This document shows, piece after piece, positions 1,304 to 39,800 of a stretch of DNA of 64,000 nucleotides. The stretch covers positions 1,922,001 to 1,986,000 of the forward strand of contig OV121090.1 in the NCBI GenBank assembly GCA_921293015.1, in the 5' to 3' direction. This DNA comes from Phorcus lineatus (lineage: Eukaryota; Mollusca; Gastropoda; Trochida; Trochidae). The notes beneath the pieces are model-generated. The model saw only the letters and a program-made list of their open reading frames with translations, was not told where the DNA came from and did no database searches. The position numbers and the translations under genes are program-made. How positions within the stretch are numbered: position 1 is the first letter of the stretch; every line of letters starts with the position of its first letter.

Positions 1304-1545
1304 AAAGATCCTAAATCCTGATGCCTGGAATTTTTATGGACATAGCAACAGAGGACTAGTCTGATGATATGAAAGTATCTCGGATTATATAACAGCTACA
1401 ACATCCACTGACCCAAAGGAGACACTCAAGGACCAGGCCAACTCATTTGAAACTGCCAAGACAAAAAGTGTAAGTACATTTTTCTTTTTTTGAATTTGTC
1501 TCATTTTTGGTTTAGTAACTAGACTTACTTTAAAGTTTCATAAAC

Positions 1546-6388: not shown

Positions 6389-6990
6389 ATTACGAATACG
6401 TTAGTTATGTATAACACATAATGTGTGGAAGTACATTTCAACTATTCAAGATTGCACTATTCAACATGTATTACCATATTTTACTGTGTCATATGTATCC
6501 CACAGCACATTTTAGCTATACAATAGCACAAAATATATCAGCACCATTGCTATCCAAGATAGCTCATGTAATATACACCTATATGTTCATGTACTAGCTT
6601 ATCAATTATTTCTTTTTCAGCAATATGAATAAGTTAGTTATGTATGACGCATAATGTGCGGATGTGCATTTCAGCTTTACCTATTTTTATACCCATACTT
6701 TTATACCCATATTTCATTTTTCCTTCAACATTATGAATAAGTTAGTTATGTATGACGCATAATGTGCGGATGTGCATTTCAGCTTTACCATATTTATATA
6801 TCCACGTTTTATTATTCTTACAACATTATGCATAAGTTAGTTATGTATGACGCATAATGTGCGGATGTGCATTTCAGCTTTACCTTATTTTTATACCCAT
6901 ATGTTATTATTCCTACAACATTGTGAATAAGTTAGTTATGTATGACGCATAATGTGCGGATGTGCATTTCAGCTATTCAATATTATCATA
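6389..6990 (+). repeat. About 100-bp tandem repeats inside the retroelement
   Basis: The block GTTAGTTATGTATGACGC, continuing into a conserved ATAATGTGCGGATGTGCATTTC stretch of similar length, recurs near 6630, 6737, 6837 and 6927, with a diverged copy near 6397. Unit spacing is 90-107 bp with variable AT-rich filler. It lies in the 3' untranslated part of the element, between pol and the polypurine tract. Confidence 0.75.
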
Positions 6991-12449: not shown

Positions 12450-12567
12450 TGCTAATGGCCAGATCATATTCACCGAGACCGTTCCCGACACCATCACAGA
12501 CTATGTGGCCTCTGCCTTTGCTATCAGTGAAACTAAGGGGCTAGCCATCACTGAAGATACCACGCCA
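12450..12567 (+). CDS. TEP exon a: A2M-domain start
   Basis: Encodes [20 protein letters not shown], the most conserved block just after the bait/hypervariable region. The first base completes a split codon from an upstream exon, so the gene continues 5'. Confidence 0.9.
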
Positions 12568-15500
12568 GTAAGTTTTTCTTTCTTTTCTTTTTTAGGAGAA
12601 ATCTGTTTATAGTGTCTCTCAGTCATGGATGCATGTTATGTTGAACCTATTTTGTATAGGCAACAATAGTTTGAATTTCTTGTTTATCTCTAACTTTTTT
12701 AATATAAAAATACTGAAAAATCAGAGTTTAAGGAAAGGAGAGGTAATACCCCCATTAATATATGAGATGAAACATCCTGGTTTGAGGAAAAAATTAAATT
12801 TGAAAATTTACCTCTCCATTAGATATGAATTCATTTCATTTATTGGAGAGTTTCCTGTGAAAACAGTCTGATAACAGGCCAAAAAGCCATGTAGTCAGAC
12901 AATAATTCTCATAACGTAAGAAAATAGGGACTTAGGGTTAGGTTAATTGCTCTAACAGGTTTGTCTTTACAGTGATGATATTGAACATTTCAGTTGACAG
13001 TATTCCAGCCATTCTTCGTCTCTCTGGCGCTGAAGTACTCCATCGTGAGGGGCGAGTCATTCACCCTACGAGTTTCCATCTCAAACTACTTGCAAACTGA
13101 AACTCCAGTAAGATCTAATTATCCTCTACATAGTGAAACATAGTGTCATATTTATAGTAAGTGCACATGAGTACATATTTGTCTTGCCTGACAGCCCATG
13201 AATCAAATTGTGATCTATAGTTACTATGCAAGGTTATGGTCCATTTTGTTGCATTTCCTTCCAAAATTTGGATTTGAAGAGATTCAGGTAATCAAGAAAT
13301 AATTACACAGGAAGTAAGTATGAATACTTATATCATGTACTATCACCATTTGAGGCAGAAATCGTCCTATAATGGCATCATGTATCTTATGCAGATTCAT
13401 AATTACTTATTACTTGACATACTTGTGATTATTTTGCAGGTACAAGTGACCTTGGAAAGGTCAGATGACTTCGAGGTCGTTGAGAGGAGCACAGGCGGAC
13501 AGGAAGTGCGAGCTTCGAAGGAAGTGGTCACAACTGTACAGGTCAGAAGCTTTTCAAAACATCTGACTTATTTCAAAGTTACATAGAGTATGTTTCACAA
13601 CTTTTGTATAATGCTTAAATAGAGACAAAATATCATTTGACTGAGTTCAGTTCAAATCGCCTATCTGAAGTTGCATCTTTATTCCTTAAATGCCACAATT
13701 ATGGCAATTTCGTTTTAAAAACGGCCATATAAATGTTAAGAAGTCAAAATTCTGCATCCCATTTACATGTATATAAGTAAGTGACCTACTAATCAATACC
13801 AACCTGTGTTTCATGTTTTGTCTGTTATAAATAAGTTTCGAAGATTACCTTGAAGTCATTGACGTGCGCCAATGTTAGGTTTTCGATCACAAATCTTGAC
13901 TATTTCCTGATCAGTGTCACCATGCTAACTTGTAAGCATTGACATGTTAATTTTCAAAAATGATAAAAAAAAAAAATAATAATAATTTATTACCCCAAAG
14001 GGAATTCAGTTTGTATCATTACAGAGCTTGAACATACAGGAACATACATGCGATACATTAGCAAAGACATTACATTAAATCAAAGATCATTTAACAGATG
14101 AACGCTGAAAGGAACCACATGAATCCAACAAGATACACTGTGCCCCTTTAAGACTTCTTTCTCCTTAAACCAGTTATGCTAGATGCTAAAATTTGTAAAA
14201 GAAATATTGTAGAATGAAACTGTCATTTAAAAATTAGGAGTTAAAAAGTCTAATACTTACTATTTAAAAAAATCATCCTACAAATTGATAAAAAAATGGT
14301 AAAAAACATGACAATAAATTGTTTTCAATATAAATCAAACAATACCCTAAAATGTGTAACCTTTTAAATGCTATCATCTTATAGCTTATTTTATACCAGT
14401 TATTTATTGATTCTTTTATGCATGTTTTCTTAAAAATCAGAATCCTGATTCGACTGTATGCCCTTATATTGCCACTATACTAAACAAACAGGTATTTTAT
14501 TGGCACTTTTGAGCAACAGTCAGTGCTAAAAAGAAGAGGCCAAATCTGAAAAGTTGGCACAAGTGACTAAAACATTCATATAGTGCCTCTCTAAGTGGTA
14601 AATATCTAATAATTCCTACATATGGGTAGTACCTGGACCATTGAGACAGCCATTTAATTAATTGATAAAGTATCTGCCTAAAACTATGACAGTCAAGTTT
14701 GGTCATGTAACAGTTATAATTACTTTTCCCACAGGTCAAACCTGGTGTGCCCACTGGAGTGACCTTCGAAATTGCTCCCAAGGTTCTTGGTGATGTGAAG
14801 ATCTTTGTTGTGGCCGCCCCAGATAAATCGACAGGAGAAATGGCCGACAGGATTGAGAAAACAGTCCTTGTGAAGGTGTGTACAGACCTCTGTTTGCTGA
14901 TTCTTTCAGGTCTCATTGGCTGAGTGGATGAGTGGTTTGTACAGTCAAGGCAGATTTCTATTTCTGACTTTGAATGAGGTTTTGGGTACAAATTCCATCC
15001 CAGAACAGTAAAAGAGGCTGTACTACTGATTTGGGTGATCTGAAATATGACTATGTTTTGTGTTTTGATTATCTAAATGGCATGTACCTCTAATCATACT
15101 ATTTCACCCTTTCACATCCAAGAAACCAGACACATGTACATATACATATACAAGCCTGACGATTTCAGGTTTGTATGGGGGTGAAAGGAGTTTAATTTAT
15201 GTTGCTAGTTCTATCATATAAGTGGTTTTATCATTTAGTTTAAAGTTTTAACATTTCATTATCAATTACATCATGGTTCTATATGCTTATCATTTATCCC
15301 CGTTGTTGATTTACCAGTTACTCAATACCATTGATAAATGTCGTACTCTGAACTGAGGCTCTTAAACGAAGGATTTCATATGCCATCAATAAAAGTCATA
15401 TATATGGGTACCACATGCAATTATTCAGTATATCAGGTGTTTGGCTGATGTCACTTTCTTTAAACTGCCATCAACTAACATCTTTATTTCCACAGCCTGA

Positions 15501-18500
15501 GGGCTTTGAACAGAGGAGAGCCGAGAGCCGATCGCTTGAACTGAGCCCGGAGAACAACATCTTTAGACAGACAATCTCACTGATGAACACCCCGGAAATT
15601 GTGTTTGGATCCCGAAAAGTCTACGTTGATGCTTGTGGTACGTATTGAATATATATATATATATATATATATCATCATATATTTCATATATATGTGATTT
15701 TAGAAGGGCAATAATGCTTATTGGAAGTTCCTTTTCTTAATATTTTCTCAAGTAAACATGTGTATGTAACATTTATTATTTTGAAAGGGACAAACCTCTC
15801 CTTCCAAAGTTATTTGTAATCGTAGAAGTAAGTTTCAAGTATCAAGCTTAAACTACTGGGGTTTCGATCAGCTACTAGGAAAGATACCATTATAAAAATC
15901 CCAAAGAATCTGACCTCTGGTCAGTGCCCAGGTATAGGCTATGAACCATTGAAATGAGGGGTGAGGATTTCAAATTCTTCAAAACATTGTTAGGCTAACA
16001 ATTGACAGACTGGCTGACAATTGGTATTTGAAGGTTTTAAAACCTATAAACAAAAAAGTGGTAAAAATATCTATGTCTTCCTTGAGTTTAAGTTTTACAG
16101 CATGTTTTGTCACTGTTATTTAAGTTGATCGTAGCATGCAGTGTACAATCTAGGACTGGTATACAAGGAGGAGATCAGTCATTCTATAGTGAAGAAAGGA
16201 GGGGGGGGGGGTTAAAAAGTGGGGGGGATATCTTAGTTGCCAATGGAAAATGCAACTTCTTCATGGTATCTGTTTGTAACTAGGGAATAAACAATAACGA
16301 TCCATGTCAGTGGTAAACACTTAACTCACACAAATTATTACATGTTTGCAAGGTGGAAAACAGTACATGCATGCAAACATTTATCGGAAATCACAGTCAA
16401 TCTTGTTAATAAAGAAATCGCGAAACTGAATATGAATTTTTCAATAATCAATTCGGTAAATATGATCAATAAAATGAGAACCAAAATGAAATATCAAAAA
16501 TAATATTGATGAGAACAGTTATTAGATATCCATTGATCATAACATAATGTCAAACGAAACCTACCTTTAATTTATTAATTAATTAAACTTTGAAAGCTCC
16601 GACCAAAACACAGAAAATAAAATGCCCAGTGATTTGGTACATGTTTGTATAAAGCATTATGATTGGCTCAGATCAGCCGATCTTTACAAGAGGGCCAATC
16701 ACAGACAGTGTCTTATTTTGATTTTATTTTTAGACATGAATGGGCATGAAATCGGCAAATACTTACCGTGGGATATGATTTTACGAGTGTTTATCAATTA
16801 ATTATGGGCTGTAACAATTTTTTTTAACATCATACCAAGAATAAGTTGAACTAATGATCATTTAGGTTTTTACTTCCAAACACTTATAAAATATGGGTCA
16901 AAATGACTGTGTTAGACAGATCACGCAGTGGCTTTTTTATGAGAGGCGCTTTGATTTCTTTTAGCGTGAATCGAGCTATCATGCGTCCTAGATTAAACAC
17001 TGAGCATGAATCAAAACAGTTAAAAGAAGAGAGCATGTATTAGGATTCAGCTAAATATAGTTGCTGGTTTCAAATGCTTCAAAACAACATCCACCTCACA
17101 GACCAAGAGACAAATAAGAAAAACATGTTATTTATGTGTCACTCAGTGTCCATGCTTTGAATAGTTATGAATAACAACATAAATGAAACACTGTCTGGCC
17201 AGCAATATTCTTAGAGACCATTCTCAATATTGAAAGAACTAAACTACCTTGGCACTAAAATGATTAAAATATTACATTATATATAGATGTATCATGTTTA
17301 TTAGATCCTCTGATGTCTTTGTTTTTAGTTAACAAGATTGTGTCTTTTTCTATTTGTAAACTTGTAAGTGGCAAACAGTTTGGAGAGTTTGAGAGTCTGC
17401 AAGAGAAATATGACTTGATCTTTTGGATTTTTGAGTATTCATGGCTTGTGCTTTCGACTATAAAAGGTATCTACTATCAGAGAAATATATTTGTTATAAG
17501 AGGCGTATATCACAAACTTGATGATGGATGACTTTCAGGTGATGTGATGGGGAAGGCCCTGAATAATCTCAAGGGTTTGGTCAGACAGCCGACAGGGTGC
17601 GGCGAACAGAACATGATTACCTTCGTCCCCAACATCGTGGTCAACAACTACCTGACCGCCACATCCCGCCTGACCCCTGAAATCAAGGAGCAGACTGAGG
17701 AGTACATGAAGACCGGTTAGTGTTGAACATCTTATGATATACTGAGAGAAATAAATAAGGGAACAGCTTTACCACAACAAGAAAATGCAAAGTTTGTACA
17801 TTGTAGATAACACACAGCAGCAGGGACGTATCCAAGCCAGTGTTCAAGTTGTGGAGGGGATCGAGGGAGTCTGTGTCTGGGGGGTCAAGTTGTGGAGGGG
17901 AGAGGGAGTCTGTGTCTGGGGGGTCAAGTTGTGGAGGGGAGAGGGAGTCTGTGTCTGGGGGGTCAAGTTGTGGAGGGAAGAGGGAGTCTGTGTCTGGGGG
18001 GTCAAGTTGTGTAGGGGAGAGGGAGTCTGTGTCTGGGGGGTCAAGTTGTGGAGGGGAGAGGGAGTCTGTGTCTGGGGGGTCAAGTTGTGGAGGGGAGAGG
18101 GAGTCTGTGTCTGGGGGGTCAAGTTGTGTAGGGGAGAGGGAGTCTGTGTCTGGGGGGTCAAGTTGTGGAGGGGAGAGGGAGTCTGTGTCTGGGGGGTCAA
18201 GTTGTGGAGGGGAGAGGGAGTCTGTGTCTGGAGGGTCAAGTTGTGGAGGGGAGAGGGAGTCTGTGTCTGGGGGGTCAAGTTGTGGAAGGGAGAGGGAGTC
18301 TGTGTCTGGGGGGTCCAGTTATGGAGGGGAGAGGGAGTCTGTGTCTTGGGGGTCAAGTTATGGAGGGGAGAGGGAGTCTGTGTTTGGGGGGTCAAGTTTT
18401 GGTGGGGGGAGTGGGGAGCTTGAGGGGTTTACCTATTATAACATGAAGGGCTCACTTTACTTTTGTGTAAATTATTGAAACTGATGAGGTCATACCCCTA

Positions 18501-21500
18501 TAACAACCCCTCATCACTCCACCCTCTGATGTTCAGCAGCCAAGCAGGAATAATTTAGCAATGATTTATGTTTTCAGGCTGTCATGCTCAATGTCTACCA
18601 CTCAGATTCTCCCACTCAGATTCCACCTCTCAGATTCCACCTCTCAGATTCCACCTCTCAGATTCCACCTCTCAGATTCCACCTCTCAGATTCTAACTCT
18701 CAGATTCCACCTCTCAGATTCTAACTCTCAGATTCCACCTCTCAGATTCCACCTCTCAGATTCTAACTTTCAGATTCCACCTCTCAGATTCCACCTCTCA
18801 GATTCTACCTCTCAGATTCCACCTCTCAGATTCCACCTCTCAGATTCCACCTCTCAGATTCCACCTCTCAGATTCCACCTCTCAGGTTCCACCTCTCAGG
18901 TTCCACCTCTCAGATTCTACCTCTCAGGTTCCACCTCTCAGATTCCACCTCTCAGGTTCCGCCTCTCAGATTCTACCTCTCAGATTCTACCTCTCAGGTT
19001 CCACCTCTCAGATTCCACCTCTCAGATTCCACCTCTCAGATTCTACCTCTCAGGTTCCACCTCTCAGGTTCCACCTCTCAGATTCCACCTCTCAGGTTCC
19101 ACCTCTCAGATTCTACCTCTCAGATTCTACCTCTCAGATTCTAACTTTCAGATTCCACCTCCCAGATTCCACCTCTCAGGTTCCACCTCTCAGGTTCCAC
19201 CTCTCAGATTCTACCTCTCAGATTCCACCTCTCAGATTCTACCTCTCAGATTCTACCTCTCAGATTCTAACTTTCAGATTCCACCTCTCAGATTCCACCT
19301 CTCAGATTCCACCTCTCAGATTCCACCTCTCAGATTCCACCTCTCAGATTCTACCTATCAGTTCTTGAAATTCAATCTATTTATTGCAATCAGTGTCACA
19401 CATCCAACAATACAAATCTTGATGAGCCAAAGTTCACATAGTTATAATTTTCAATTCAAGGATACCAGCGAGAGTTGACATATATGTTGCTTGATGGCTC
19501 CTTCAGTGCATTTGGAGAGAGCGACGGCAACGGAAGCACTTGGTGAGTAAATCTTTTAATATAAAACATAGAACTTAAAATGATGAATTTGTTAGATCCA
19601 ATGCCAAAATAGCATCTGCCACTTTTGTTACTGCCCATCATTTGTTCTTGCACATCAAGAGCATTTTTTCAAATCTTCAAAGTTTTACTTCGGAAAAGTT
19701 ATATTTATTCATATCAATGTTCTTCAATTCAAATTCAATAATGTATTATACCACTTTATTTAGCATCACTACCTTTTGTTTAATTCTGATTGGTCATGCA
19801 ATTTTCAATGCACAACCCACCAGCTTTCAATGGCGGAAGACTCAGACGCCAGTCGACATTGGTGACCCTGACCTCATTTACATGGTCACCATGACACTTT
19901 GACCACTCTAATACATTGATAACGCAATAATATTAATTATGCCAAATATCTCATTGCGGGGGACATTGCCATGTTAGTGGCCAACACTTGTTATTTATGA
20001 TTTACAATGTTTCGGGTTCAGAATTTGTCGACGGGGGGGCCTTTTGGGCTATTGTTACGTTATATATGATTTTTCAAATTATTTTTATTGACTTGAATCT
20101 AACCCCCCCCTTGGATCCGCCACTGCTAATTAGTGTCTGAAGTTATGCAGCAGTATAAGATCGTAAAAATTGCCTCAGGAAATACAATATCTTCCAAGGT
20201 ACCAATACATATCACAACCTTATCAGAAAGCCATGTATCTATGATATATAGGTAATATTTCAAGTCTGTATGACTGTAAGAGGGGATGGGATAGGGAGTG
20301 GGGAGGGTGTTTGGCTTCAGATCAAGAGGTCTGTGGTTCGATCCCGCAAGGGACTCGGCAACTTTGTCTACAGTAGTCAACTGTTATCCACACAGTAAGG
20401 TTTGGGTGCAATGCTACACTAAATTTCAGCAGAGTACCACCCATGGTTAGCTAGTTCCAGCCGATGCTCGCAGGTTTCATCGCAAAGCATAGCCACAATG
20501 GTGATGTGGGCTTTCTCCCTGCAATAATACTAGTAGCCGTGTTATAAGTGAAATACTTTTGAAAGCGGCGTCTAACCCCACCTCACCTCACCTCGCCTCG
20601 CCTCGCCTCAGTGTAAGATGCTTGTCACTTTTCTCCCATTGCAGGCTGACTGCGTTTGTCACGAAGAGCTTTGCGCAAGCTTCAGCATTTATAACCCCTG
20701 ACCACAATGTGATGAAGAAATCCCTTGGGTGGCTCCTGAGTAATCAAAACGAGGACGGAACATTCAAGAGCGTTGGCAGAGTTATTCATCAGGAAATGCT
20801 GGTAATATATATATCCTCCTCTATCCAATTGAGTTCTTCTCTACTTTTTTTTGGCAACCCTGATTTGATAGTGAAAACTTTCCTTCTTTTGTTTTTTTAT
20901 TGACAAAAGAAGTTTACTTATCATACATGGAGGAAATGACATATTTTTGAGTGGTATGCATTTTTTACTTCACGAGTTACCTCCCTTTGATGAACTTTTA
21001 ACCAGGAACTGTTTGAACTTCATATTTTCCTATGTATGACTTGTGACAAGATTTGACTAGGGTATCTTAGGAAAAAACATTTGAATCATTTGCTAATCAT
21101 TTGAATTAAACAATAATGGTCCAACAAACAAATTCTCTTGTGTGTCACATCGTTATATGGATGATTGGCTCTGCCTTTGGCTTTCAACATGGAAATTTCG
21201 TAGCATAATGACAATAATTGATTAGAAATTTAAATAAAAAATTTCCAGGTTGGGCTCGCTTCAACTCTTCTACAATCTCTGTTGATAGAGACCATTTGTC
21301 TGTGTTTGTTGTGAAGGGACAGATCAGAACAAGTGTCTAATTTCCCTTGTAAAATATTTGTCTCATCGATCCATAGGTTTTACTTCAGGAATTTTCTCTC
21401 TTTACTTTCTCCAACAGGGTGGATCGGCTGGAGGCAAGGCCCTGACAGCTTTTGTCTACATCGCACTGAAGCAGAGCGAAGAATACCTCGACACCATGGT

Positions 21501-24500
21501 AGGCATGGATGATGAAATGATTCATTATTGAGATTAATAGTAATAGTAATGATAATAAAATGATAGTAATAATATTAAAGATATTGATAATAACAACAAC
21601 AACGATAATGATAATAACAATACTCTTGCAAAATCCATGAAAAAACAGGCAAGATTGCATTTATGTAAACATATCTTGTATTTTCAGCAAATGACTAAAC
21701 TCGGAAAGACAAAGACCTACCTGGAAAATCTGGTCAAGAACAAAGACTCTTTTAGAAACACCTACGAGAAGGCCATTATTGTTTTCGCCCTGCGATTGGC
21801 CGAGAGCAACTTCGCGGAACAGCTCCTCCAGGATATAAACAGTACGTTACAGACTTATCTGTGTTGCTCTTAAAGGCACTACAGCACCGTTTCTTATTGA
21901 GTGAAGAGTTTTCATTAAGTATGTTTCATTCTAAAGATTTTTTTTCGCATAAAGGAGATGTAAACTTGACCAAATAAATCAAAGGGGCTGAAGGTTAATA
22001 ATTTTAAGAAAATCAGTAAGAACGTCTTTGTCAAAAGTTTGTCACCTGAGTGCTCTATTTCCACTTTTGGTGAAAATTGACTTTGAGTGTTCCAGGTAAT
22101 TTGGAGGGTGTAATCTATCCCTACCCAAATTTTCAAGGCGAAATTTAACTTAGAAAATTGTTTTCCACAGATTTCCTTTGTTCTAACTCCAAACATTTCA
22201 ACAGTTCCTTAGATCATTTACCTAATCCAATCATCACGGTTGATTTAGTCACATGACATGGACATAGAACAATTTGGAACTGACTTAAACTCCTTGGTTA
22301 AAATGATGATGTAATCCATTTAAATTATATTTTAAGTACAAAACAGATTTTTTTTTCGCATAAAGGAGGGGTAAACTTGACCAAATAAATCAAAGGTGCT
22401 GAAGTGCTTAAGGTTCCTAATGTTAAGAAAGTCAGGAAGAATTTCTGTGTCAAAGTTGTTGATTTTGCACTATTAATGTTTTTCATTTGCTATCCTACTA
22501 ACAAGAAGACCATCTCTGCTGACCGAGTTCCCTTTCTTTAAAGTGACAGTTCTTCAGGATCGGAGCGACCTTATCTTAAGCCGATTTACCATTTCAACAG
22601 TGATTTACATTCTACTGATGACAAGAAATACATAAGATTTTAGCTCTTTTATACTCCTCTTCTTCTTATCGAATGCTCCAGATGATGAGAAGCCGTGGGA
22701 GAAGGCGCCTGTGGAACCGAAGCCAATGCCTCTTGATGATGCCCGACCAGCTCTATTTGACTACCGTCCACCCGAGGCAAAACCGACCGACATTGAGACC
22801 TGGTCCTACGTGCTACTTACCTATGCCAAAGACAAGGATCTTGCTGGCGGAAATGAGATCATGAAATGGCTCATTGAGCAGCAAAATGATGGCGGTGGCT
22901 TCAAGAGCACACAGGTACTATTTTTAGCGATTTTGATCGTGTTTGAATAATGTTAGATTAATCGTGTTTGAATAATGTTTGATTAATCGTGTTTGAATAA
23001 TGTTTGATTAATCATGTTTGAATAATGTTGGATTAATCATGTTTGAATAATGTTTCATTGATTGTGTTTGAATAATGTTTGATTAATCATGTTTGAATAA
23101 TGTTTGATTAATCATGTTTGAATAATGTTTGACTGATTGTGTTTGAATAATGTTTGATCGTGTTTGAATAATGTTTGATTGTGAATAATGTTTGATTGTG
23201 AATAATGTTTGATTACGTTTGAATAATGTTTGATTGTGTTTGACTCACAGGACACCGTGCTTGGACTTCAAGCTCTGGCTGATTATGCAGCTCTTGCCTA
23301 CACTGCGCCAAAGACGGACATCTCGCTCTTCGTGACGGCCAGGGCGCCATCTGGGGACAAGTCGCACACTTTCTTTGTCCAGAAGGAAAAGCTACTTTTA
23401 CTTCAGTCCCATCAGGTAATAGAGACAAATCTGAACAGAATCTATAGCTATAGAACACATAAATAAACTGAGTGAAGGAAAAGAGATTTGAATTGGTCAA
23501 ACATTTACAAACACTAGTGATGTGGATATATTTGAGAGATACAGGAGCCTCAAACATCGTGATTTTAACAAAAAGATACCATATCGCCGTGAAGTGTAAT
23601 ACTGTTATCAAACTTTTCTCTTTTTGGAATTCTTCTAAAAGATCCCTTGGTCCACAGAGTTGAAGTCTTGTGAACCTGACCCTTGTCCAAGGGTCCTGGT
23701 GATTATAAGATTTGAGGTCTCCCCCTATCTATGTAGGTTTATAACTTCTGGTTCACTGCCAATCTTCTATGGTAATCTTACTCTTAATCACAGCCCAGCT
23801 AGAGCCTACTGTCTATTTTATCACAGTAGTGTACACGGGTCTGCTAAGTTGTACTGATTTGATCTTTATCAATGTCAAACAAATTTAAGATATAACTTCA
23901 TGATACAAAAATCTGACAATAAAGTACATAAAAAAGTGAAAGCTAATTTTTTGAAACATTATGAAAATTTGTAGAGGATGAATTTTAGTTGATACTTTTG
24001 AAGGGTCATTAAAATAGTACATGTAACTAGTTTATTACATTTCAGTTAAAAAATAAACCAACATTCAGAGGATTTGACTTTTATCAAAAAATAATTATTG
24101 TCATATTTGGATGAAAAGAAGGGTTGTTTTAATGAAAATCAAATCTATACAGTGTTTAAAATGTATTCAAGCTTAATAGAATATACTGAGAATCATAGAG
24201 GGCCTCTTTATGGCGATGTTTTTACTAATGAATGATAATAATTTTGTATTCACAAGACTAGATATATAATGGATTATGAATTGTTTTTCAGTTCCCTGAC
24301 GACACAACATCTATAGAGCTGTATGCTAATGGAAGCGGACTCGCCATCGTCAATGTAAATATTTCTATATAACATAATTTGTTCTAATAAATATAATTCT
24401 TGATCTTGGCCAGATATGATGGTAGAGTTAAAACCATGAAAATAATTTAATGGAAACTTTTAAATAATTTGTTTGAAATTAGACTTGGGCTGATAAAAAA

Positions 24501-27500
24501 TATTCTTTAAGAATTGAAAGAAATGACAATGTTTCCTATTAACATTTATTTTACAATAAAATGTATTTGTTATTTATGATAATGTTCTCTCTTGTCAATG
24601 TAAATACTAAATAGAAGTGTAAATACTAAACTTGGATGTCATTCTATATATGGCTGTTTATGTTTTGAACCATGCTCATATGCAAGTGAATTATATCTCA
24701 ATTTCATATTTATATTAATATTATGTTTTCATTTTAACATTCTATTGTGCTTTGATGATGTGAATAAACTTCCTATAGGAAAAGCAGCGTGACTATGTTC
24801 AAAGGGATAAAAATAGATAGATATAACTTTCAGAGTATTTCGGTCATATCCTCACCAAATGGTCGGACAATTAACAGCTCGTAAAATTGCACGTTCTCTT
24901 GCCGTGTTAGTGCTTATGATAAATTGTTAAAAGCTAACCAATGACATTAAAGTAGAAAGAATGGTTCACAGCTGTTATTTGCCCCTAGCTTCTGATACCA
25001 AAAGAACTTGTGATTAGCTAATTTCTCACAGAACATGCGACTATAGGGGCTGTTCTCAGACCATAGTGCAGAGGAGACCTCAAGATAAATTGAGTTCATA
25101 GACTGGTAGAGGTTTTAATTTGAAAGTTTTATTCCTCTGAACATGGTAAATTCTTATAGAAAGCTATAATGGGTTCTTATGTCTCAAGAAATGTGTGCGC
25201 TAGTGCCCTTAATGAGACTGGTTGGACAGACTGTAGTTGAATGTGCTGGTTAATGCTGTACAGGTGAGGTGGAACTACAACACCATGAAGGAACCAATGA
25301 TAATGACAGACAAGAAGATCAAGGGCTCTGTGAAAACAAACAAGATTGACGACAATCATTTCGTCATCAGGGGCTGTGTCTCGTAAGTACCTGGATCTCA
25401 GATAACCGGAAACCTTGCTATCCAGACGCAAATTTTTGGAACCATGTCTGTACATTTGCACTGATTCAGATAACCGAACAACTCACTATCCGTACAATTT
25501 TCACCTGTAATCAAATCGTCCTGATAATTGACTTTCGACTGTATACACAAAACTTTTGCAGTTAAGGCACTGAGCATTTTGATATTTCATTAGTTTTAAT
25601 TTTCATCATTATGTATGAGTTTGTGGAAAATATGTATTGTCTCAAACAGTGAAACATCTGATTGCTTACCCAAATTATCTTTATTTGGACAAGGTGTCAC
25701 TTAGCAAGTGAAAATACAGGTGGACATTTTATTGTGAAGACCTTTTTAATGACGGGATGTTCATCCAATTGTCAGTCAATCAAAGGATAATTCCTCGTAA
25801 ACCCTCCCCCCCTCCCCTCATCTTTGTCCATACAAAACTTTTATTTTAAACATTTTGGCTGTCTATAATTTAATAAAAGTATATTAATATATTAATAATT
25901 CTATTCCCAGAACAATGGACAAGGACCTGGGCATGACAACTAACAAACTGCACATCCAGTCTGGCTATGAAGTGACCAACAAGGAGGAGCTGGTCAAGGG
26001 CAATGTGAGGGTGGACATCGACGAGCAACAAGTGGTCATCTACTACAATGACGTAAGATGCTTATCACTTAACATGATAACAATGATAAAGTAAAAAAAT
26101 AGTTCAGTGCAGCTTTCGAAACATGTTTTGGACCTTACAAGCAAGCAGGACTTTTGTTTGAAAAATCAACCAGCCTCTTCTCCAGCTGGCTCTATCTGAA
26201 ATTAACCAGCAATTGGCAGTTTTTCTGAACACTGATTCAGTGTACGTAGGATCTACCCCGTGTTTGCAAGGAAGTCAAAGGCTCAGTACAGATAGACAGA
26301 AAACTTCAGAGAGGCAGAGAATATTAAAGTTATGACTAGCGAGAATACAAGAGCTCAGGGAGGTAGGAAATATAAGAGCTCAGCAAGGCAGGGAATATAA
26401 ACGTTCTGATAAGAGAGAATACAAGAGCTCAGGGAAGTAGGAAATATAAAAGCTCAGCGAGGCAGGGAATATAAAAGTTCTGATTAGAGGAAATACAAGA
26501 GCTCAGGGAAGTAGGAAATATAAAAGCTCAGCGAGACAGGGAATATAAAAGTTCTGATAAGAGGGAATATAAGAGCTCAGGGAGGTAGGAAATATAAAAG
26601 CTCAGGGAGGCAGGGAATATAAAAGTTCTGATAAGAGAGAATAAAAGAGCTCAGAGAGGTAGGTAATATATAACTGAAGATTAGAAGGAAACCCAAAGTT
26701 TCAGTATGGAGCAGTAATGACAGGTTAGACCTGAATGCAATGAGATTTACACTCAATGTAGCATGCTCAGTCTGGTCTGAGGCAACCAGCTGCAGTATTT
26801 TGAAATGCTCTGTATGATGTCCCCATTGATAGCTTCATGCCTGTATGGTTCAAATTTTCAGGTTGGTGAGAATGAACAGTGTGCCCAAGTCAAGGTGATG
26901 AAGTCCATGGACTTGCCAGTGAACAACGCACAACCGGCCGCCATGACAGTTCAGGCATACTACCAGCCAGGTGACTCATTCAGTTCCCTTTTGAACAGAT
27001 AGAAAAAGTTCAGATACAACTTCCTTCCTGTCCGACACCTGTGTACAATTATTGTACTTTAGTGTGTGACACCCTCATATAGCATCCTCTGTATATCTAA
27101 CACCCTTTAATGATGCCCAAACCACTTTCTTGTCAATCTGTATATGTTGTCAAACCCTTTGAACCATCCATTTAGACACAGTGCATATTGACAAGGATAG
27201 AGGGACATTGTATTCACGGACATTGTATTCACTGGCAAACATTTATCTTAAAAATTCCTTGTTATTATACAGAAGTTCTAAATTCTTTTTTAAAAATTCC
27301 TTAATTCTTTATAGAGGTTTTCAACGAGGTTTCGTTAATGTTGAGAGAAATGATTGAGGTTTAATAATTATCTCTATGGTTTATATAAAAATCCCTTGCT
27401 ATTTTACAGAGGTTTTCAACGAGGTTTCATAAATGTTGAGAAAATGATTGAGGTTTAATAGTTATCTATGGTTTATATAAAAAATCCCTTGCTATTTTAC

Positions 27501-29201
27501 AGAGGTTTTCAATGAGGTTTCATAAATGTTAAGAGAAATGATTGAGGTTTCATAATTATCTCTATGGTTTATATAAAAATTCCTTGCTATTTTACAGAGG
27601 TTTTCAACGAGGTTTCATAAATGTTTAGAGAAATGATTGAGATTTAATAACTATCTCTATGGTTTATATAAAAATCCCTTGTTATTTTACAGAGGTTTTC
27701 AATGAGGTTTCATAAATGTTAAGAGAAATGATTGAGCTTTAATAATTATCTCTATGGTTTATATAAAAATTCCTTGCTATTTTACAGAGGTTTTCAACGA
27801 GGTTTCATAAATGTTGAGAGAAATTATTGAGGTTTAATAATTATCTCTATGGTTTATATAAAAATTCCTTGTTATTTTACAGAGGTTTTCAACGAGGTTT
27901 CATAAATGTTGAGAGAAATGATTGAGGTTTAATAATTATCTCTATGGTTTATATAAAAATCCCTTGCTATTTTACAGAGGTTTTCAACGAGGTTTCATAA
28001 ATGTTGAGAGAAATGATTGAGATTTAATAATTATCTCTATGGTTTATATAAAAATTCCTTGCTATTTTACAGAGGTTTTCAACGAGGTTTCATAAATGTT
28101 GAGAGAAATGATTGAGGTTTAATAATTATCTCTATGGTTTATATAAAAATTCCTTGTTATTTTACAGAGGTTTTCAACGAGGTTTCATAAATGTTGAGAG
28201 AAATGATTGAGGTTTAATAATTATCTCTATGGTTTATATAAAAATCCCTTGCTATTTTACAGAGGTTTTCAACGAGGTTTCATAAATGTTGAGAGAAATG
28301 ATTGAGGTTTAATAATTATCTCTATGGTTTATATAAAAATTCCTTGTTATTTTACAGAGGTTTTCAACGAGGTTTCATAAATGTTGAGAGAAATGATTGA
28401 GGTTTAATAATTATCTCTATGGTTTATATAAAAATCCCTTGCTATTTTACAGAGGTTTTCAACGAGGTTTCATAAATGTTGAGAGAAATGATTGAGATTT
28501 AATAATTATCTCTATGGTTTATATAAAAATTCCTTGCTATTTTACAGAGGTTTTCAACGAGGTTTCATAAATGTTGAGAGAAATGATTGAGGTTTAATAA
28601 TTATCTCTATGGTTTATATAAAAATTCCTTGTTATTTTACAGAGGTTTTCAACGAGGTTTCATAAATGTTGAGAGAAATGATTGAGGTTTAATAATTATC
28701 TCTATGGTTTATATAAAAATCCCTTGCTATTTTACAGAGGTTTTCAACGAGGTTTCATAAATGTTGAGAGAAATGATTGAGATTTAATAATTATCTCTAT
28801 GGTTTATATAAAAATTCCTTGTTATTTTACAGAGGTTTTCAACGAGGTTTCATAAATGTTGAGAGAAATGATTGAGCTTTAATAATTATCTCTATGGTTT
28901 ATATAAAAATCCCTTGTTATTTTACAGAGGTTTTCAACGAGTTTTCATAAATGTTGAGAGAAATGATTGAGGTATAATAATTATCTCTTTGGTTTATATA
29001 AAAATCCCTTGCTATTTTACAGAGGTTTTCAACGAGGTCTTGTACACAGTTGAAGACTCTGTGGAGGTCGACATCTGCACAGTGTGCCAGCCCGTGTACT
29101 GTCCCAAGCGATGTTCTACCAGCGAGGCCTCAACGCCGTTCCGTGGAGTGCTTCTCTCTGCCTGTATCGCCCTCCTCTGCAGCCTCATTGTGGCTCTGTA
29201 G
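12450..29201 (+). CDS. Thioester-containing protein, CD109/TEP type, 3' half (17 exons)
   Basis: This is an A2M/C3-family protein whose reactive thioester would bind covalently to targets in immune defence or protease capture. Exons: 12450-12567, 12994-13107, 13440-13541, 14735-14875, 15496-15637, 17539-17715, 19461-19542, 20645-20801, 21418-21498, 21688-21841, 22682-22914, 23251-23415, 24292-24354, 25264-25382, 25911-26052, 26862-26970, 29023-29201. All junctions use AG/GT and the phases join to 759 codons. Domain order: [13 protein letters not shown] block of the A2M domain, CUB/MG segments, thioester domain with GCGEQ (17595-17609), a downstream His in VIHQEM (20787-20789), receptor-binding domain ending AYYQPE, a Cys-rich tail, and a hydrophobic C-terminus typical of a GPI signal. 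The GPI signal points to CD109-like or insect-TEP-like membrane attachment. The signal peptide and MG1-6 half lie upstream of the window. Confidence 0.93.
12994..13107 (+). CDS. TEP exon b
   Basis: Encodes [20 protein letters not shown], the family's FQPFF...Y(S)(V/I)(V/I)RGE block. Phase 0 at both ends. Confidence 0.92.
13440..13541 (+). CDS. TEP exon c
   Basis: Encodes [14 protein letters not shown], a beta-sandwich strand after the RGE block. Phase 0 in and out. Confidence 0.88.
13960..14700. other. Intronic sequence with an A-rich/AAT stretch
   Basis: An A-run and (AAT) repeats at about 13967-13990 are followed by 'TTTATTACCCCAAAGGGAAT', which looks like a retroposon 3' end on the opposite strand. 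No ORF supports a family call. Confidence 0.3.
14735..14875 (+). CDS. TEP exon d
   Basis: Encodes a segment ending with KTVLVK, matching the 'LG...I.V.A....D.....LLVKPEG' region of the family. Clear pyrimidine tract before the acceptor. Confidence 0.9.
15496..15637 (+). CDS. TEP exon e
   Basis: Starts [16 protein letters not shown], the conserved PEG motif that opens the CUB-like insert, and ends in the strand before the thioester domain. Confidence 0.9.
15645..15672. repeat. (TA)n microsatellite
   Basis: Uninterrupted AT dinucleotides immediately after the exon e donor. Confidence 0.8.
15673..17538. other. Large TEP intron without recognised elements
   Basis: Contains a G-run near 16198-16230 but no framed exon or transposon end that I could identify. 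Confidence 0.4.
17539..17715 (+). CDS. TEP exon f: thioester site
   Basis: Encodes [20 protein letters not shown]. The Cys and Gln of GCGEQ form the internal thioester. Followed by YLTATSRLT, the first helices of the alpha-alpha toroid. Confidence 0.97.
17852..18412 (+). repeat. 39-bp minisatellite in TEP intron
   Basis: About 14 copies of a 39-bp unit containing GGAGAGGGAGTCTGTGTCTG. The period is a multiple of three, so several frames stay open on both strands (a [13 protein letters not shown] repeat and others). Codon-level drift is random and no splice signals frame it, so it is intronic satellite. Confidence 0.92.
18592..19358 (+). repeat. 14-bp minisatellite in TEP intron
   Basis: About 54 copies of CAGATTCCACCTCT with CAGATTCTACCTCT and CAGGTTCCACCTCT variants. 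The 305-codon open frame ([14 protein letters not shown] repeats) is a by-product of 14 bp x 3 = 42 bp. It ends about 100 bp before exon g. Confidence 0.93.
19461..19542 (+). CDS. TEP exon g
   Basis: Encodes [20 protein letters not shown] then GNGSTW, the classic helix after the thioester. The Trp codon is split with the next exon. Confidence 0.95.
20262..20605 (+). mobile_element. tRNA-derived SINE, copy 1
   Basis: Head with a diverged A box and a good B box (GGTTCGATCCC at about 20336), then a body shared with 31312-31605: 'GACTCGGCAACTTTGTCTAC', 'GGTTTGGGTGCAAT', 'TTCTCCCTGCAATAATACTA'. It ends in (CCTCA/CCTCG) repeats. Inserted 40 bp upstream of TEP exon h, in the same orientation. Confidence 0.85.
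20645..20801 (+). CDS. TEP exon h: catalytic His
   Basis: Encodes [12 protein letters not shown] and GRVIHQEML. The His is at the position of the residue that directs thioester chemistry toward hydroxyl targets in C3- and TEP1-like proteins. Confidence 0.94.
21418..21498 (+). CDS. TEP exon i
   Basis: Encodes [20 protein letters not shown], a thioester-domain helix pair. Phase 0 at both ends. Confidence 0.92.
21528..21625. repeat. (RAT/AAC)n trinucleotide-rich microsatellite
   Basis: Degenerate GAT/AAT/AAC trinucleotides in the intron between exons i and j. Confidence 0.75.
21688..21841 (+). CDS. TEP exon j
   Basis: Encodes [18 protein letters not shown], the Y...A(I/L)..YAL helix of the toroid. 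Confidence 0.93.
21937..22467 (+). repeat. Duplicated intronic segment
   Basis: The block starting TTTTTTTTCGCATAAAGGAG at about 21940 recurs at about 22350. Both continue through GTAAACTTGACCAAATAAAT and a diverged 60-bp tail. Unit about 110 bp, copies 410 bp apart, in the intron between exons j and k. Confidence 0.75.
22682..22914 (+). CDS. TEP exon k
   Basis: Carries a Pro/Asp-rich linker and then [16 protein letters not shown] and [16 protein letters not shown], the QR..NGGF.STQDT motif split at its end by an intron. Confidence 0.94.
22925..23240 (+). repeat. About 24-bp minisatellite abutting TEP exon l acceptor
   Basis: About 14 copies of GTTTGAATAATGTTTGATTA plus a variable four-base end. 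The array runs into the pyrimidine tract of the exon l acceptor (TTTGACTCACAG), so its last units form the branch-site region. Confidence 0.88.
23251..23415 (+). CDS. TEP exon l
   Basis: Starts [15 protein letters not shown], completing the STQDT motif. End of the toroid and return to the CUB strands. Confidence 0.94.
24292..24354 (+). CDS. TEP exon m
   Basis: Short exon (21 codons) encoding [15 protein letters not shown], the GxGxAxVq strand of the CUB domain. Confidence 0.88.
25264..25382 (+). CDS. TEP exon n
   Basis: Starts VRWNYNT, the '(V/L)..YN' strand that follows the previous exon in the family; a less conserved linker follows. Confidence 0.88.
25911..26052 (+). CDS. TEP exon o: receptor-binding domain
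   Basis: Encodes [16 protein letters not shown] and [11 protein letters not shown], matching the 'M.i.D..l.SGf.p......l' pattern of the C-terminal A2M receptor-binding domain. Confidence 0.9.
26330..26668 (+). repeat. Minisatellite of about 25-bp subunits in 75-bp groups
   Basis: Alternating subunits 'AGAGCTCAGGGAGGTAGG', 'AAGCTCAGCGAGGCAGGG' and 'AAGTTCTGATAAGAG', each with AATATAA, repeat as a higher-order trio about 4-5 times. In the intron before exon p. Confidence 0.82.
26862..26970 (+). CDS. TEP exon p
   Basis: Encodes [20 protein letters not shown] and MTVQAYYQP, the C..f....V.N.q.a.v.vyDYY.P end of the receptor-binding domain. The last codon is split; with the genuine final exon it becomes Glu. 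Confidence 0.93.
27311..29022 (+). repeat. 95-bp tandem array of duplicated 3' splice sites
   Basis: About 18 units precede the genuine final exon. Each has an AT-rich lead, 'CTTGCTATTTTACAG', then the first 16 bases of the final exon (AGGTTTTCAACGAGGT), then 'TTCATAAATGTTGAG'. Spacing is 94-96 bp from 27406 onward. Joined to exon p, nearly every unit reads E-V-F-N-E-V-S-stop (one unit has ATG for ACG but the same protein; the first, at 27314, reads on for nine more residues). The array is therefore a ladder of potential alternative terminal exons. It may regulate isoform choice or simply be tolerated. Confidence 0.93.
29023..29201 (+). CDS. TEP final exon: Cys-rich tail and GPI signal
   Basis: Continues the frame as [17 protein letters not shown], followed by a CxxC...C...C cluster and a Ser/Thr-rich stretch. 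It ends with [16 protein letters not shown] at the stop. A small-residue spacer plus a hydrophobic end is a GPI-attachment signal, so the full-length isoform should be tethered to the cell surface. The first 16 bases (AGGTTTTCAACGAGGT) are copied in every unit of the preceding array. Confidence 0.93.
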
Positions 29202-30649
29202 GGTGACAAGAGTTACTTGCCCTTGTCATAGTTTCTGCATTTTGAAATTTTGACAGAAAAAAAATCAAATCAATTCAGCTGTTTTTTTATGAAGTTGTAA
29301 TGAAGTTGTTTTTCGATAACTCTCCTAATTCTAAAATCAATCAATTTTAAAAATCAAAACGACTGATTAATAAGAGCTTTTCATGACAGGGGCAAAAACT
29401 ATGGATTGAATTACTTTGTGACAAATACTGTGTAAAAAAGCTATTAGAGGGGAATTAGTTAAGCCATAATTATTTGACAATTGGATGATTTTGTAAATAT
29501 CCATGACAATGAAAGTTTCTAGTATCCTCAAAAAGACTTTGATATGAATAATTTAAATATTTTTTTTATTAATGAGAAATTCATGAATTAAAACTATCAA
29601 GTGTTTTGGAAAATCTTTTTTAGCCCCATACTTGCTGAGGACTAACCTTGTTGCAAAAACAAAACTTTGTTTCAAATATTGATATGCATATTATGAAATT
29701 GTATTTTGACATTCCGCTGTGTTGTGATAAAACCTTTTAGAGATCGTAAATATTATGATCAGGTTATTATCTTGAGTCTTGTAGTTCTAACCCATTAAAC
29801 CACGCTTATTAAATTAACCATATTCAATTCAGTAACAATAATCGTGAATTGAATATAGTTAATCTACATATTTATGTTTCGATACTCCCAAGCACCAGCG
29901 TGCTCAATTGCTGTAAAATTTCAAAAATAATTTTGACACTTGATGTATATTTACTTACTGATATACATATATATCCATATATATATACATACACTTGTTC
30001 ACATACATACATACGTATACCTATAGTTATTAATTTCTATATAGTTTTGATTACCAGGTGGTGCAGGTCACATTAAGAAATCAATCTTGTAATGTTTTTT
30101 AAGAATTATGATTTTATTTGTCTATGTTTGATAAAGCCAAATTTGTGTTCATGGATATGAGCATAATACTGGCTAGCCTTTGACAATGTTAATTACGAAA
30201 GGATTTTGTACTTCATCAAGATTGTCAATTTATGAAATTTATTCTTATGTACATAGTTTACTTTATTTTGCCCGTTTAGAATTTTTTTTCTCAAAATTTG
30301 TATCTAATTTTCTACGTTCTCTTTAAATGCGGTTTGAACTATAAAATTTTAAAATTTTAAAATTTACAACTATTTATTTCCATTTGTTATTAGAGATGTT
30401 TTATAATTTGTGAATATAATAATTGATATTGATTTATATATATTTATGTATATATTTTGATATTGATAATTGGGTGAATCTAAAAGACAAATTTATTTTT
30501 CATACTTACCATAAATTGATGATTTTTTCCGTCAAAGAAATGTTTTGTCAATCGTGAATTCTTGAATTGTTTATATGTTGATATCTGTGCCTTCATCATT
30601 AACACATGTGATTTTCTAATTAGAGTTTTTATTGAATGTCCCTAATAAA
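29202..30649 (+). other. Probable TEP 3' UTR
   Basis: No ORF or transposon was seen. The first canonical AATAAA downstream of the stop is at 30644-30649, so the 3' UTR could be about 1.45 kb; use of variant signals further upstream is possible. Confidence 0.4.
30644..30649 (+). terminator. Candidate TEP poly(A) signal
   Basis: AATAAA followed by a T-rich stretch (CTTTTTGTAGTC), on the coding strand of the TEP gene. Confidence 0.4.
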
Positions 30650-32601: not shown

Positions 32602-32790
32602 TCTGTCTCGGGGCAAGACGTATACGCCGACAACACTCTCTGAGAAGGAAGGTGAACGACAAGGCTGTCTCAGGGCAAGACGTATACGCCGACTCCACTC
32701 TCTGAGACGGGAGGTGAACGACAAGGCTGTCTCAGGGCAAGACGTATACGCCGACTCCACTCTCTGAGACGGGAGGTGAACGACAAGGAA
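32602..32790. repeat. 62-bp tandem repeat, about three copies
   Basis: Units carry GGCAAGACGTATACGCCGAC and CACTCTCTGAGACGGGAGG. The unit is GC-richer than its surroundings. The period is not a multiple of three, so coding is unlikely. Confidence 0.85.
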
Positions 32791-36838: not shown

Positions 36839-39800
36839 CTTGAACGTAAAGATATAAGATAAATTGGAAATGGTTCGAGGCAGATCTACATAATTTATAT
36901 TGGTGAAATTCCACCCAAAATAATGAAGAATTAAATGTATGTGTAGAGTGCTTTCCTTTGTTGGTTTTTGCCCAAGGCATTTAACAGTTACCTTTCGAGG
37001 TTTATTCCATTTAACAATTTTGATGACTGTACCAAACTTTACATATCAATGATGACACGCAAGCATGCAATTAGTCAAACTAGATCCTAACAAACAGCAA
37101 CTTAATTTCCAAATAATCTTTCCCGAAATTACTGCTTCCCCCGAAAACCCATGTTACAAGTGAAGAGCTTTCTGGGCTTAAAATCAAAACCCTTATTAGT
37201 GCAGTTCATATAGGTTTACAACCAAGGCCTCTTGGTTTGTACATAGTTTTATCGCAACAGAAGACTGGAGTCCCTTCCTCTGTGCGTTGTGAATAGAGGA
37301 CAGAAGTCAGTACGAGATGTAAAATGATATTAGACTGAATAGAACGACCTAGATATCCAACTTGCAAATTTCACAGATTTGAACCGAATACTATTGTCCA
37401 CTTGTAACATAGTCTTGATGGGAAGATCTGAGTTGAGTTGTCTCCATGGAAAGAAAATTTCGATATATCCTACTTTGAAATTAAACTTGTTGTCTGGAGT
37501 GTCTTGATCTGAACTCAGCCCGGAGTCTGGCGGAGTGTTCCCGGAGCCGGAGTCCTGTCTCTCCATGATCACGGACATGGGTCGGTTCAACTCCGTGAAT
37601 GTGTGGTTCCGTCTCAAGATCCCCGTCGGCTTCTTCCCAACTGGTGCAGAGGCGCGCCGGACTGTCGTGCTGATGTGCAAATATATATATCATTACACTG
37701 ATTGTAGACATATTTTATTTATCGGCATGGACATGAAGATTAAGAGACAGATCTTACCAGGCTTTTTCATTGTACGAAATTAACATTCCACTCTAAATTT
37801 GAAGAATTACATCGTCCTGATTAAGTAGGTTGGTATTTTAAAAAATAATGAAGTTAACATAAATGGCGAACAAGAGATGTTAAAACGTATACCTTGCGAT
37901 AAAAACTGCACATGAAAAATTTTAAGAATATATGCATAGAGAACCCTCCCATACATAAAATTCTCCATTCATACTTACCATCAAAACTAGTTTTTTTAAA
38001 GGGCAAATTCTCTCACCTTGATCTCCTTCGCACGTGCGACATTTCTTCCATTTTCATGGACTGTCTCCTGGCCAGAGCGATGGACGCCCGTCTCACGATA
38101 GACTTCCTGCGAGCGATGGACATGCGGCGAAGAGCTCTGGAAAAGGAACGAGAATGATATCATATGTTAATTGTAATTAAATAATCAAATCAAGTTAATC
38201 AATACCGTCATATTATAACCATATGTACTTACAAAAATTAATATGATAATAAAGCTTAACTAAAATCATGGGTTCCAGTGAAAAATGAATGATCGATACT
38301 ATGTAATGATGATATTTTAGTCAAACGAAGGTCACATTCATCACGAATCTCTCTCTGTAAATTAGGTGTCTTCATCTTTATTTCTTGTTTATGGGTTCCA
38401 AAATACGAGGGGATATCAGAAAGTTTCAATTATCACAAAGAATGTACTGGTGAATACGGACCAAATGGTCACTGTGACATAAGTGATCCTTGTCTAGTTC
38501 TTGGGTCAACAATAGTCTTTTTTCTTACTTCTGGTCACCAAACAGCACAGTACCCCTATTATGGAGAAAGGCGCGCAGTGTAATTAAGTTTTTACATTTG
38601 AAGGGATATAATGCACGTCAAATTCATGATGAGATGAAATCTGTTTATGACAGTGACAGCCCATCCCATGACACTGTTGTGAGATGGAAAAGTAATTTCC
38701 AAACAGGCTACATGTCCCTCGCAGCTGAGTGGACGCCCCTCATTTACTGAGGATATGGATGTCATCAAGAAGGTTGAGACGCTGGTTCAAGAAGATCGCC
38801 GCGTAACTCTACAAATGATAATGCATGAAACATGGAACATGCTCCATAACCAGTTTCATATGTCCAAAATGTCAGCACGCTGGGTTCCTCGCTTACTGAC
38901 TCCATTGCAAAAACAGAATCGAAGTTACATGTCACGAAAGGCATTGGAGCTATTGGAACAAGACGAAGAGGATTTCTTCAAACGTCTTGTTACCATGGAT
39001 GAATGCTGGGTCTATCAATATGATCCTGAGACAAAAGAGATGAGCAAAGAGTGGAAGCATGCTACGTCACCACCTCCAAAAAAGGCCAAGGTGCAAAAGT
39101 CTGCAGGAAAGGTCATGGTTTCTGTTTTTTGGGATTGTCGTGGAGTCATCTTGACGGATTATCTAGTTAAGGGTCAGACCATTACTGGAGCTTATTACTT
39201 CAACCTGCTGAGCAAGTTACGAGATGCCATTAAACAAAAGCGCCGCGGTATGATCACCAAAGGTGTACGCCTGTTAGCTGACAATGCCCCAGCTCACACT
39301 GGTCAAGCAGCTACTGTGGAGGCACGGCGATGTGGCTTTGAAATCTTACCGCAGCCACCTATTCACCCGATCTTGCACCAAGTGACTTCTTCTTGTTCCC
39401 CGAGATCAAAAATCCACTTCGCGGACGTCGTTTTGAGGACACCAATGACATCATTGGAGAGGTTGAGGCTTGGTTTTCAATGAATGCAGGTGTCTTCTAT
39501 TCAGACGCTCTGCACAAGGTCAAGAAGCGATGGGAAAATGTTTACTCTGGATGGTGACTATGTAGTGTAGTCTTAAAAACATGAGAACAAAATAAAGTTT
39601 GTACCTTGTGTCTGTGATAATTGAAACTTTTTGATATCCCCTCGTACATTCCACCGAAAACTCAGATCCAATAATTTAAAGATGTCTTACCGTCGTGGAG
39701 CGATGCGAAGAAATAATTGTAGGTATATTTCAAACTTCTCTGAAATGTAAACAAAACCATCCTTATATTCACTAGTTAAAAATTATTCATTCATCAATGG

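Follow-up and report, generated by a model that had tools for sequence, protein, structure and literature searches.

A ladder of copied 3′ splice sites before the last exon of a CD109-like gene in the snail Phorcus lineatus, probably a passenger minisatellite of the amphioxus "mirage" type

How does the splicing machinery treat an exon that is preceded by many near-identical copies of its own 3′ splice site, and does the gene make use of them? Such an arrangement is found in a CD109/TEP gene of Phorcus lineatus, where the original prediction was that the copied acceptors could switch the protein between GPI-anchored and soluble forms. We examined this locus in a stretch of 64,000 nucleotides of contig OV121090.1 (positions 1,922,001 to 1,986,000), referred to here as the window, and in related loci of the same genome.

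The gene and the array before its last exon

The window holds, on its + strand, the C-terminal part of the gene. A 17-exon model with GT-AG introns, spanning 12450-29201, gives an unbroken protein of 758 residues, and homologous exons lie further upstream, outside the window, up to 39 kb before its start. The exons are as follows.

12450..26052, + strand: exons A-O (15 exons), encoding the A2M domain, the thioester domain with GCGEQ and the start of the receptor-binding domain (RBD)
26862..26970, + strand: exon P, the penultimate exon of the GT-AG model, ending ...VQAYYQP in phase 1, with the donor after 26970
29023..29201, + strand: exon Q, the true last exon, encoding the end of the RBD, a Cys cluster, a hydrophobic GPI-signal-like tail and the stop codon

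Joining donor 26970 to acceptor 29023 is compatible with the unbroken 17-exon model. The GCGEQ thioester domain, the A2M domain and the receptor-binding domain of the CD109/TEP family are all present (Pfam, whole 758 residues: TED_complement 4.6e-85, A2M 1.1e-19, A2M_recep 2.1e-08), and the best match to a solved structure is CD109 (8s3o, E 2.6e-113). Among the matches listed, the closest are the CD109-like proteins of Haliotis rufescens (51%) and Haliotis asinina (48%), with further CD109-like proteins from Patella vulgata (42%), Lottia gigantea (41%) and Gigantopelta aegis (40%); an annotated protein of P. lineatus itself was absent from the best 120 homologues listed per search, the best being the 51% match to H. 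rufescens. The last 16 residues are hydrophobic (mean hydropathy 2.8) and constitute a candidate GPI signal by hydropathy and conserved alignment. H. rufescens, H. asinina, Patella, Gigantopelta and Lottia have a C-terminus with a hydrophobic tail like that of exon Q, which aligns with the five proteins through YY..E/G...VLY/MY...C..C and into the tail. Because these five other gastropod proteins have the same kind of C-terminus, the anchored end is probably ancestral; the exon side of the array unit is, from sequence comparison, probably its source. Other relatives in a 16-protein alignment, several of them molluscan, stop soon after the Cys residues and are tail-less. These tail-less TEPs are separate genes, and the complete ones in the alignment keep both the last strand and the Cys residues.

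The intron between exons P and Q (26971-29022) is 86% tandem repeat and contains the following features.

27236..27314, + strand: degenerate 5′ margin of the array, retaining an incomplete, ghost-like copy of the acceptor portion (read by eye)
27291..29038, + strand: 95-bp minisatellite, 18.4 copies, which starts in the intron and takes in the first 16 bases of exon Q (Tandem Repeats Finder: period 95, 95% match, score 3179)
27315..28961, + strand: 18 decoy acceptors with exon-like copies, first exon bases at 27315, 27410, 27503, 27598 ... 28928
27821..28770, + strand: higher-order repeat of two five-unit blocks, identical at 474/475 bases

Each unit consists of about 79 bp of intron and 16 bp of exon, that is, a 3′ splice site with the start of exon Q, and the array, which ends at 29038, crosses the exon start at 29023. 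The pattern TTTTACAGAGGTTTTCAACGAG, with up to three mismatches, matched 19 times in the window, always within the array, and 0 times in 100 dinucleotide shuffles. The earlier base-level reading of about 18 duplicated acceptors about 95 bp apart was correct: there are 18 decoys and the true site, with a spacing of 95 bp from 27503 to 28928 and on to 29023, and one spacing of 93. All 18 decoys carry the AG. As had been proposed, the units copy the acceptor together with the first 16 exon bases, AGGTTTTCAACGAGGT, which are exact in 15 of the 18, with a single change each in the decoys at 27503, 27693 and 28928. The predicted reading of Glu-Val-Phe-Asn-Glu-Val-Ser and a stop from nearly every unit also held, EVFNEVS-stop being found for 16 of the 18 decoys when read in aligned units (four of the 18 were translated explicitly); the exceptions are 28928, which gives EVFNEFS-stop, and 27315, which gives a different reading of 20 protein letters. 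Past base 16, ungapped similarity between the unit and exon Q is 15/34 (shuffle p 0.012), and gapped tests at 20 to 50 bases give p values of 0.05 to 0.32.

Because the two five-unit blocks are copies at 474/475 bases, the array must have grown recently. Its centre is homogenised and its edges are diverged, most private changes falling, by eye, at 27315 and the 27410/27503 pair (spaced by 93 bp) on the 5′ side and at 28928 and 29023 on the 3′ side; in all, the units carry private changes and one indel. No copy of the 95-bp unit was found elsewhere in the 958-Mb, 74-contig genome by a search that gives lower bounds, and no Rfam match reached gathering scores over 26900-29300. Neither AATAAA nor ATTAAA occurs within the array, so decoy-spliced transcripts would share the normal 3′ end.

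Tandem repeats make up 27% of the intron bases of this gene (17% without intron P-Q) and occur in 6 of its 16 introns, in two of these only as simple AT or TAA runs. One of them nearly fills its intron.

22936..23238, + strand: minisatellite filling 90% of intron J-K, with no exon edge crossed (Tandem Repeats Finder)

Further minisatellites lie in introns of the same gene at 17844-18411, 18597-19361 and 26306-26670. Elsewhere, the window contains an unrelated repeat of 95-bp period in three copies (6693-6974), a GC-rich 62-bp repeat in three copies in which coding is not obvious (32603-32788), and, at 56398-57776, three consecutive blocks of near-identical layout, about 529 bp apart, made up of 24- to 32-bp repeats. 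Two mobile elements were also recognised: a Gypsy-like retrotransposon (1534-6029), in which a single ORF combines domains of reverse transcriptase, RNase H and integrase and for which a sequence at 965 that recurs at 8644 perhaps represents the LTR ends, and a mariner-like transposase (38683-39483; Pfam Transposase_1).

Precedents and a second array in the gene family

Boundary-spanning minisatellites have been described in amphioxus as "mirages" (PMC3087553). They include arrays in the globin genes BflGb6 and BflGb9, and RT-PCR suggested regular splicing; the authors allow that mirage copies may act as cryptic sites, and arrays of this type were proposed as a route to new introns (PMC3087553). 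The Adh and TnC mirages are reported to yield no aberrant mRNAs, and PGBD5 was added as a case (PMC3902484). As described there, the amphioxus arrays share with ours the tandem duplication of an intron/exon boundary, the AG or GT within the units, the homogenised centre and the diverged edges. They occur in acceptor and donor forms, as in the snail TEP family (below), and the BflGb6 array joins the 3′ end of an intron to the 5′ part of the next exon, just as the snail array does. Unlike them, the snail array has a mollusc as host, comprises 18 decoys as against the 6 and 3 units given for two BflGb6 haplotypes, and precedes a last exon, so that the decoy stops fall in the terminal exon; the comparison sets the RT-PCR and haplotypes reported for amphioxus beside one genome assembly here. 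No mirage in a mollusc, or in any animal outside the lancelets, was found in the open-licence literature searched. The original statement that no such case had been described thus holds for a TEP, as far as was searched, but the structure class itself was already known.

Two further systems offer parallels. In human CBS, the allele 844ins68 duplicates an intron/exon junction over 68 bp; the distal of the two sites prevails and the duplication is spliced out (PMC2630376; this source terms the sites donors, whereas the title of a paper cited there says 3′ splice site). The duplicated junction, the closeness of the splice sites and, for CBS, the use of the distal one recall the snail array, but the reported CBS allele has one extra 68-bp copy and the snail 18. 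In intron 1 of Sparus aurata myostatin-2, the repeat allele 2R brings in an extra predicted acceptor, with a score of 0.99 against 0.98 for the real one (PMC3045353), a likeness in that a repeat-borne acceptor outscores the authentic site; the difference is that these are copy-number alleles of an intron, and an exon-crossing array is not described in that source. Alternative splicing of molluscan TEPs is documented for BgTEP2, BgCD109, BgA2M and CfTEP, and the variety in Biomphalaria sits in the central variable region (PMC7016707). The gene family and a tandem choice between alternatives are shared with our case; however, the molluscan TEPs in that account use alternative bait or variable-region exons, whereas the snail array consists of copied C-terminal acceptors.

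The same genome contains a second mirage. Thioester-domain exons mark about 15 places in the genome (45 exon matches), and one of the loci, L013 (C1:67215545-67218928), has an array at an internal thioester-domain exon that ends ...LTAFVVVALLEAYTPSS.

L013:1858-2385: second mirage, ten 53-bp copies (96%) of the exon end and its donor GTGAGT

The authentic donor is at 1900 and is followed by nine decoys up to 2377, the copies keeping 34 or 35 of the 37 exon bases. Reading into any of these decoy donors adds VSRCLL and then a premature stop. The donor ladder is the mirror image of the acceptor ladder, on another contig and at a position where no anchor switch is possible. In 57 fetched loci of this genome, which total 255,547 bases with overlaps counted twice and contain 161 coding blocks at E<=1e-4, L013 supplied the only further array that crosses a coding block or comes within 30 bases of one, besides that of the window's own intron J-K (L036); the count covers exons at or above this cut and so passes over weaker ones such as the one in L051.

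The junction at exon P recurs within the family, 11 paralogue loci having it in the same phase (L045, L047, L049, L050, L051, L053, L055, L057, L058, L059 and L060). No Tandem Repeats Finder repeat scoring at least 50 was found in the interval from the penultimate to the last exon in L053, L055, L057, L058, L059, L060 and L061; the last block was placed at E 2e-4 or better in four of these seven and more weakly in L061 (1e-3, the YY junction not being seen there) and in L059 and L060 (0.3). In L051 (C1, about 21.25 Mb), a 25-bp array of 5.7 copies, 99% alike (1611-1752), begins at base +6 of the penultimate-exon donor, outside the exon, and is unrelated to the 95-bp unit.

We think it likely that the array before exon Q is a mirage, a passenger minisatellite derived from a boundary duplication, and that the true site at 29023 is dominant. 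The array, its identity with the exon boundary, its recent homogenisation and the second mirage in the same family are established here, and we favour the passenger reading because the array spans the boundary, grew recently by blocks and has a unit found only at this locus in a search that gives lower bounds, because the introns are repeat-rich, and because of the second mirage and the precedents. On this view the minisatellite began when the boundary between intron P-Q and the last exon was duplicated in tandem, and it presumably expanded through unequal exchange. The unit next to exon Q would then hold the authentic 3′ splice site, and the 18 upstream copies would be passengers. Most mRNAs would probably be spliced to 29023, perhaps aided by the GC-rich real exon downstream, giving a GPI-anchored CD109-like protein; decoy use would be low and its product a truncated by-product. 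We infer both the predominant use of 29023 and the reason for it.

Decoy strength and constraint

A 23-base acceptor matrix built from the gene's 16 other acceptors, which is small and not very selective, scored 17 of the 18 decoys at least as high as 29023. At 1.8 bits, the true site is equalled by six decoys and exceeded by others, four of them at 1.9 and seven at 4.0 to 4.1; the first decoy alone falls below it, to -2.3. Leave-one-out scores of the 16 other real acceptors ranged from 0.9 to 11.0 (median 3.7); of the intron's 123 AGs, 34 reach or surpass the score of the exon Q acceptor. AG-free zones span 37 to 49 bases at the decoys and 49 at exon Q. Candidate yUnAy branch points stand at -46 and -27 in 16 of the 18 decoys; exon Q has such a candidate only at -27 (leaving aside one at -4), that at -46 being missing, and its unit shows three departures from the consensus, two that no other unit shares, at -49 and -34, and one at -17. 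On these measures, then, local signals do not favour the true site. The GC step across the acceptor is 0.23 at exon Q versus 0.03-0.12 at the decoys (median of the 17 real exons, 0.22), a difference we regard as suggestive because 4 of those 17 exons have a step of 0.10 or lower. If each decoy were used with an independent chance p, the computed anchored share, (1-p)^18, would fall to 50% when p is 3.8% and to 15% when p is 10%; decoy skipping must therefore be very efficient. Use of the array as cassette exons or microexons, or in recursive splicing, is unlikely, the best donor inside it scoring 2.9 bits, below most real donors (0.0 to 8.7 bits; 2 of 16 at 1.0 or below).

Constraint on the decoys was assessed in 15 of the 17 interior units; 27410 and 27503 were left out because the indel falls between them, and 27315 and 29023 were excluded as array edges. 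The acceptor core has 2 variable sites among its 34 positions and the rest of the unit 7 among 61 (Fisher p 0.48, permutation p 0.31), and the longest invariant run gives p 0.68, with low power, there being nine variable sites in total. Changed cells are rarer in the core (2/510 versus 24/915). This cell count leans, at the level of sequence, towards constraint, but weakly, because changes share inheritance through block duplication; most of those outside are three sites common to six or seven units. Selection on the decoys was accordingly set aside, the core having no shortage of variable sites, though fewer changed cells. The passenger reading is nonetheless weakened in that the true site is no better locally, cells are changed more rarely in the core, skipping must be very efficient and the constraint test is of low power.

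There is a real, if clearly smaller, chance that the array arose as a mirage and that its decoys are used without regulation in at least 10% of mRNAs, copy number setting the load of truncated and mostly non-functional product that is tolerated by selection. Decoys that equal or surpass the true site locally, are transcribed before it and would share its 3′ end, in an array lacking AATAAA and ATTAAA, are what such leakage calls for, and cryptic-site use of mirage copies is allowed in PMC3087553. The precedents, however, report regular splicing, both in amphioxus (PMC3087553, PMC3902484) and in CBS (PMC2630376), and five gastropod proteins keep the anchored end.

The product of decoy splicing

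Splicing to a decoy would bring in a stop codon within one unit, in the terminal exon, and the product would lose the Cys cluster and the hydrophobic, GPI-signal-like tail, as originally predicted. The prediction that it ends after the receptor-binding domain was not borne out. In a model of the Lottia homologue (25 sequences; mean pLDDT 79.4, about 80 around the last strand), the last RBD strand comprises residues 770-775, ETSVLY, whose counterpart is FNEVLY in the window protein and FNEVS from the decoys. By this model and the alignment, the predicted decoy protein ends inside the last RBD strand: it falls short of the full strand by one residue, has Ser in place of Leu and lacks the Tyr. 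All 25 aligned sequences share this Tyr, and so do 175 of the 194 homologues that reach its column, from 229 retrieved and 202 that hit the region. Escape from NMD, also part of the original prediction, has in its favour the stop in the terminal exon; against it, the 3′ UTRs of decoy mRNAs would be long and AT-rich, and NMD in invertebrates can target such UTRs.

The 19 exceptions at the Tyr column include vertebrate CD109 models ending DYYEPSK.... Twelve of the 229 retrieved models, all vertebrate CD109 and one of them partial, end in this way at the same junction, without the anchor tail. For Phocoena sinus CD109, both ends are annotated (P0063 versus P0040 and P0042). In paralogues of the snail's own genome, translation continued into the intron at the homologous junction would likewise give YYEPSK or YYEPCK, a parallel that favours read-through as the origin of the vertebrate ends. 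These models may be annotation artefacts; as sequences, they hint that unanchored ends can arise at this junction elsewhere.

It is improbable, on this evidence, that the ladder serves to make a soluble form under regulation, the balance of soluble and anchored immune effector being tuned by array length or by splicing factors. A decoy stop in the terminal exon, the loss of tail and Cys cluster, the rarer changes in the acceptor core and the apparent read-through in those 12 vertebrate models would fit such a switch. Mammalian CD109, moreover, exists in anchored and soluble forms (PMC11842317, PMC7960916), and the released form is reported to be active, but that release is from the cell surface, not by splicing (PMC11842317). 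The decoy product would end within the last RBD strand, with Ser for Leu and without the Tyr of 175/194 homologues, whereas tail-less relatives still keep the last strand and the Cys residues. No array lies between the last two exons in the seven paralogue loci, two of them weakly placed, the core shows no excess of invariant sites in a test of low power, and the mirror donor ladder stands where it could tune no such ratio. The vertebrate read-through models, too, may be artefacts. We likewise give little credence to a rheostat in which the copy number of the minisatellite varies between individuals and determines how much of the CD109-like protein is secreted relative to the anchored form.

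Very unlikely is an allele in which the decoys own the intron, almost only truncated protein is made and exon Q is decaying: 18 competitors precede the true site and 17 equal or outscore it on the matrix, but exon Q is open and matches its orthologues, including the hydrophobic tail. That assembly produced the copy number or the whole array, as near-identical blocks might suggest, is highly improbable in view of long contigs (958 Mb in 74), private unit changes and an indel.

What is new here is the occurrence of two molluscan mirages, one on the acceptor side and one on the donor side, in one gene family of one snail genome, the class itself being known from lancelets. Were copy number to act as a rheostat after all, the array would supply an immune gene with standing variation. 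With 18 near-identical 3′ splice sites before one real exon, the locus is a natural experiment on site choice by the spliceosome: if the true site is indeed used while local signals are equal, exon definition or signals in the downstream exon must decide.
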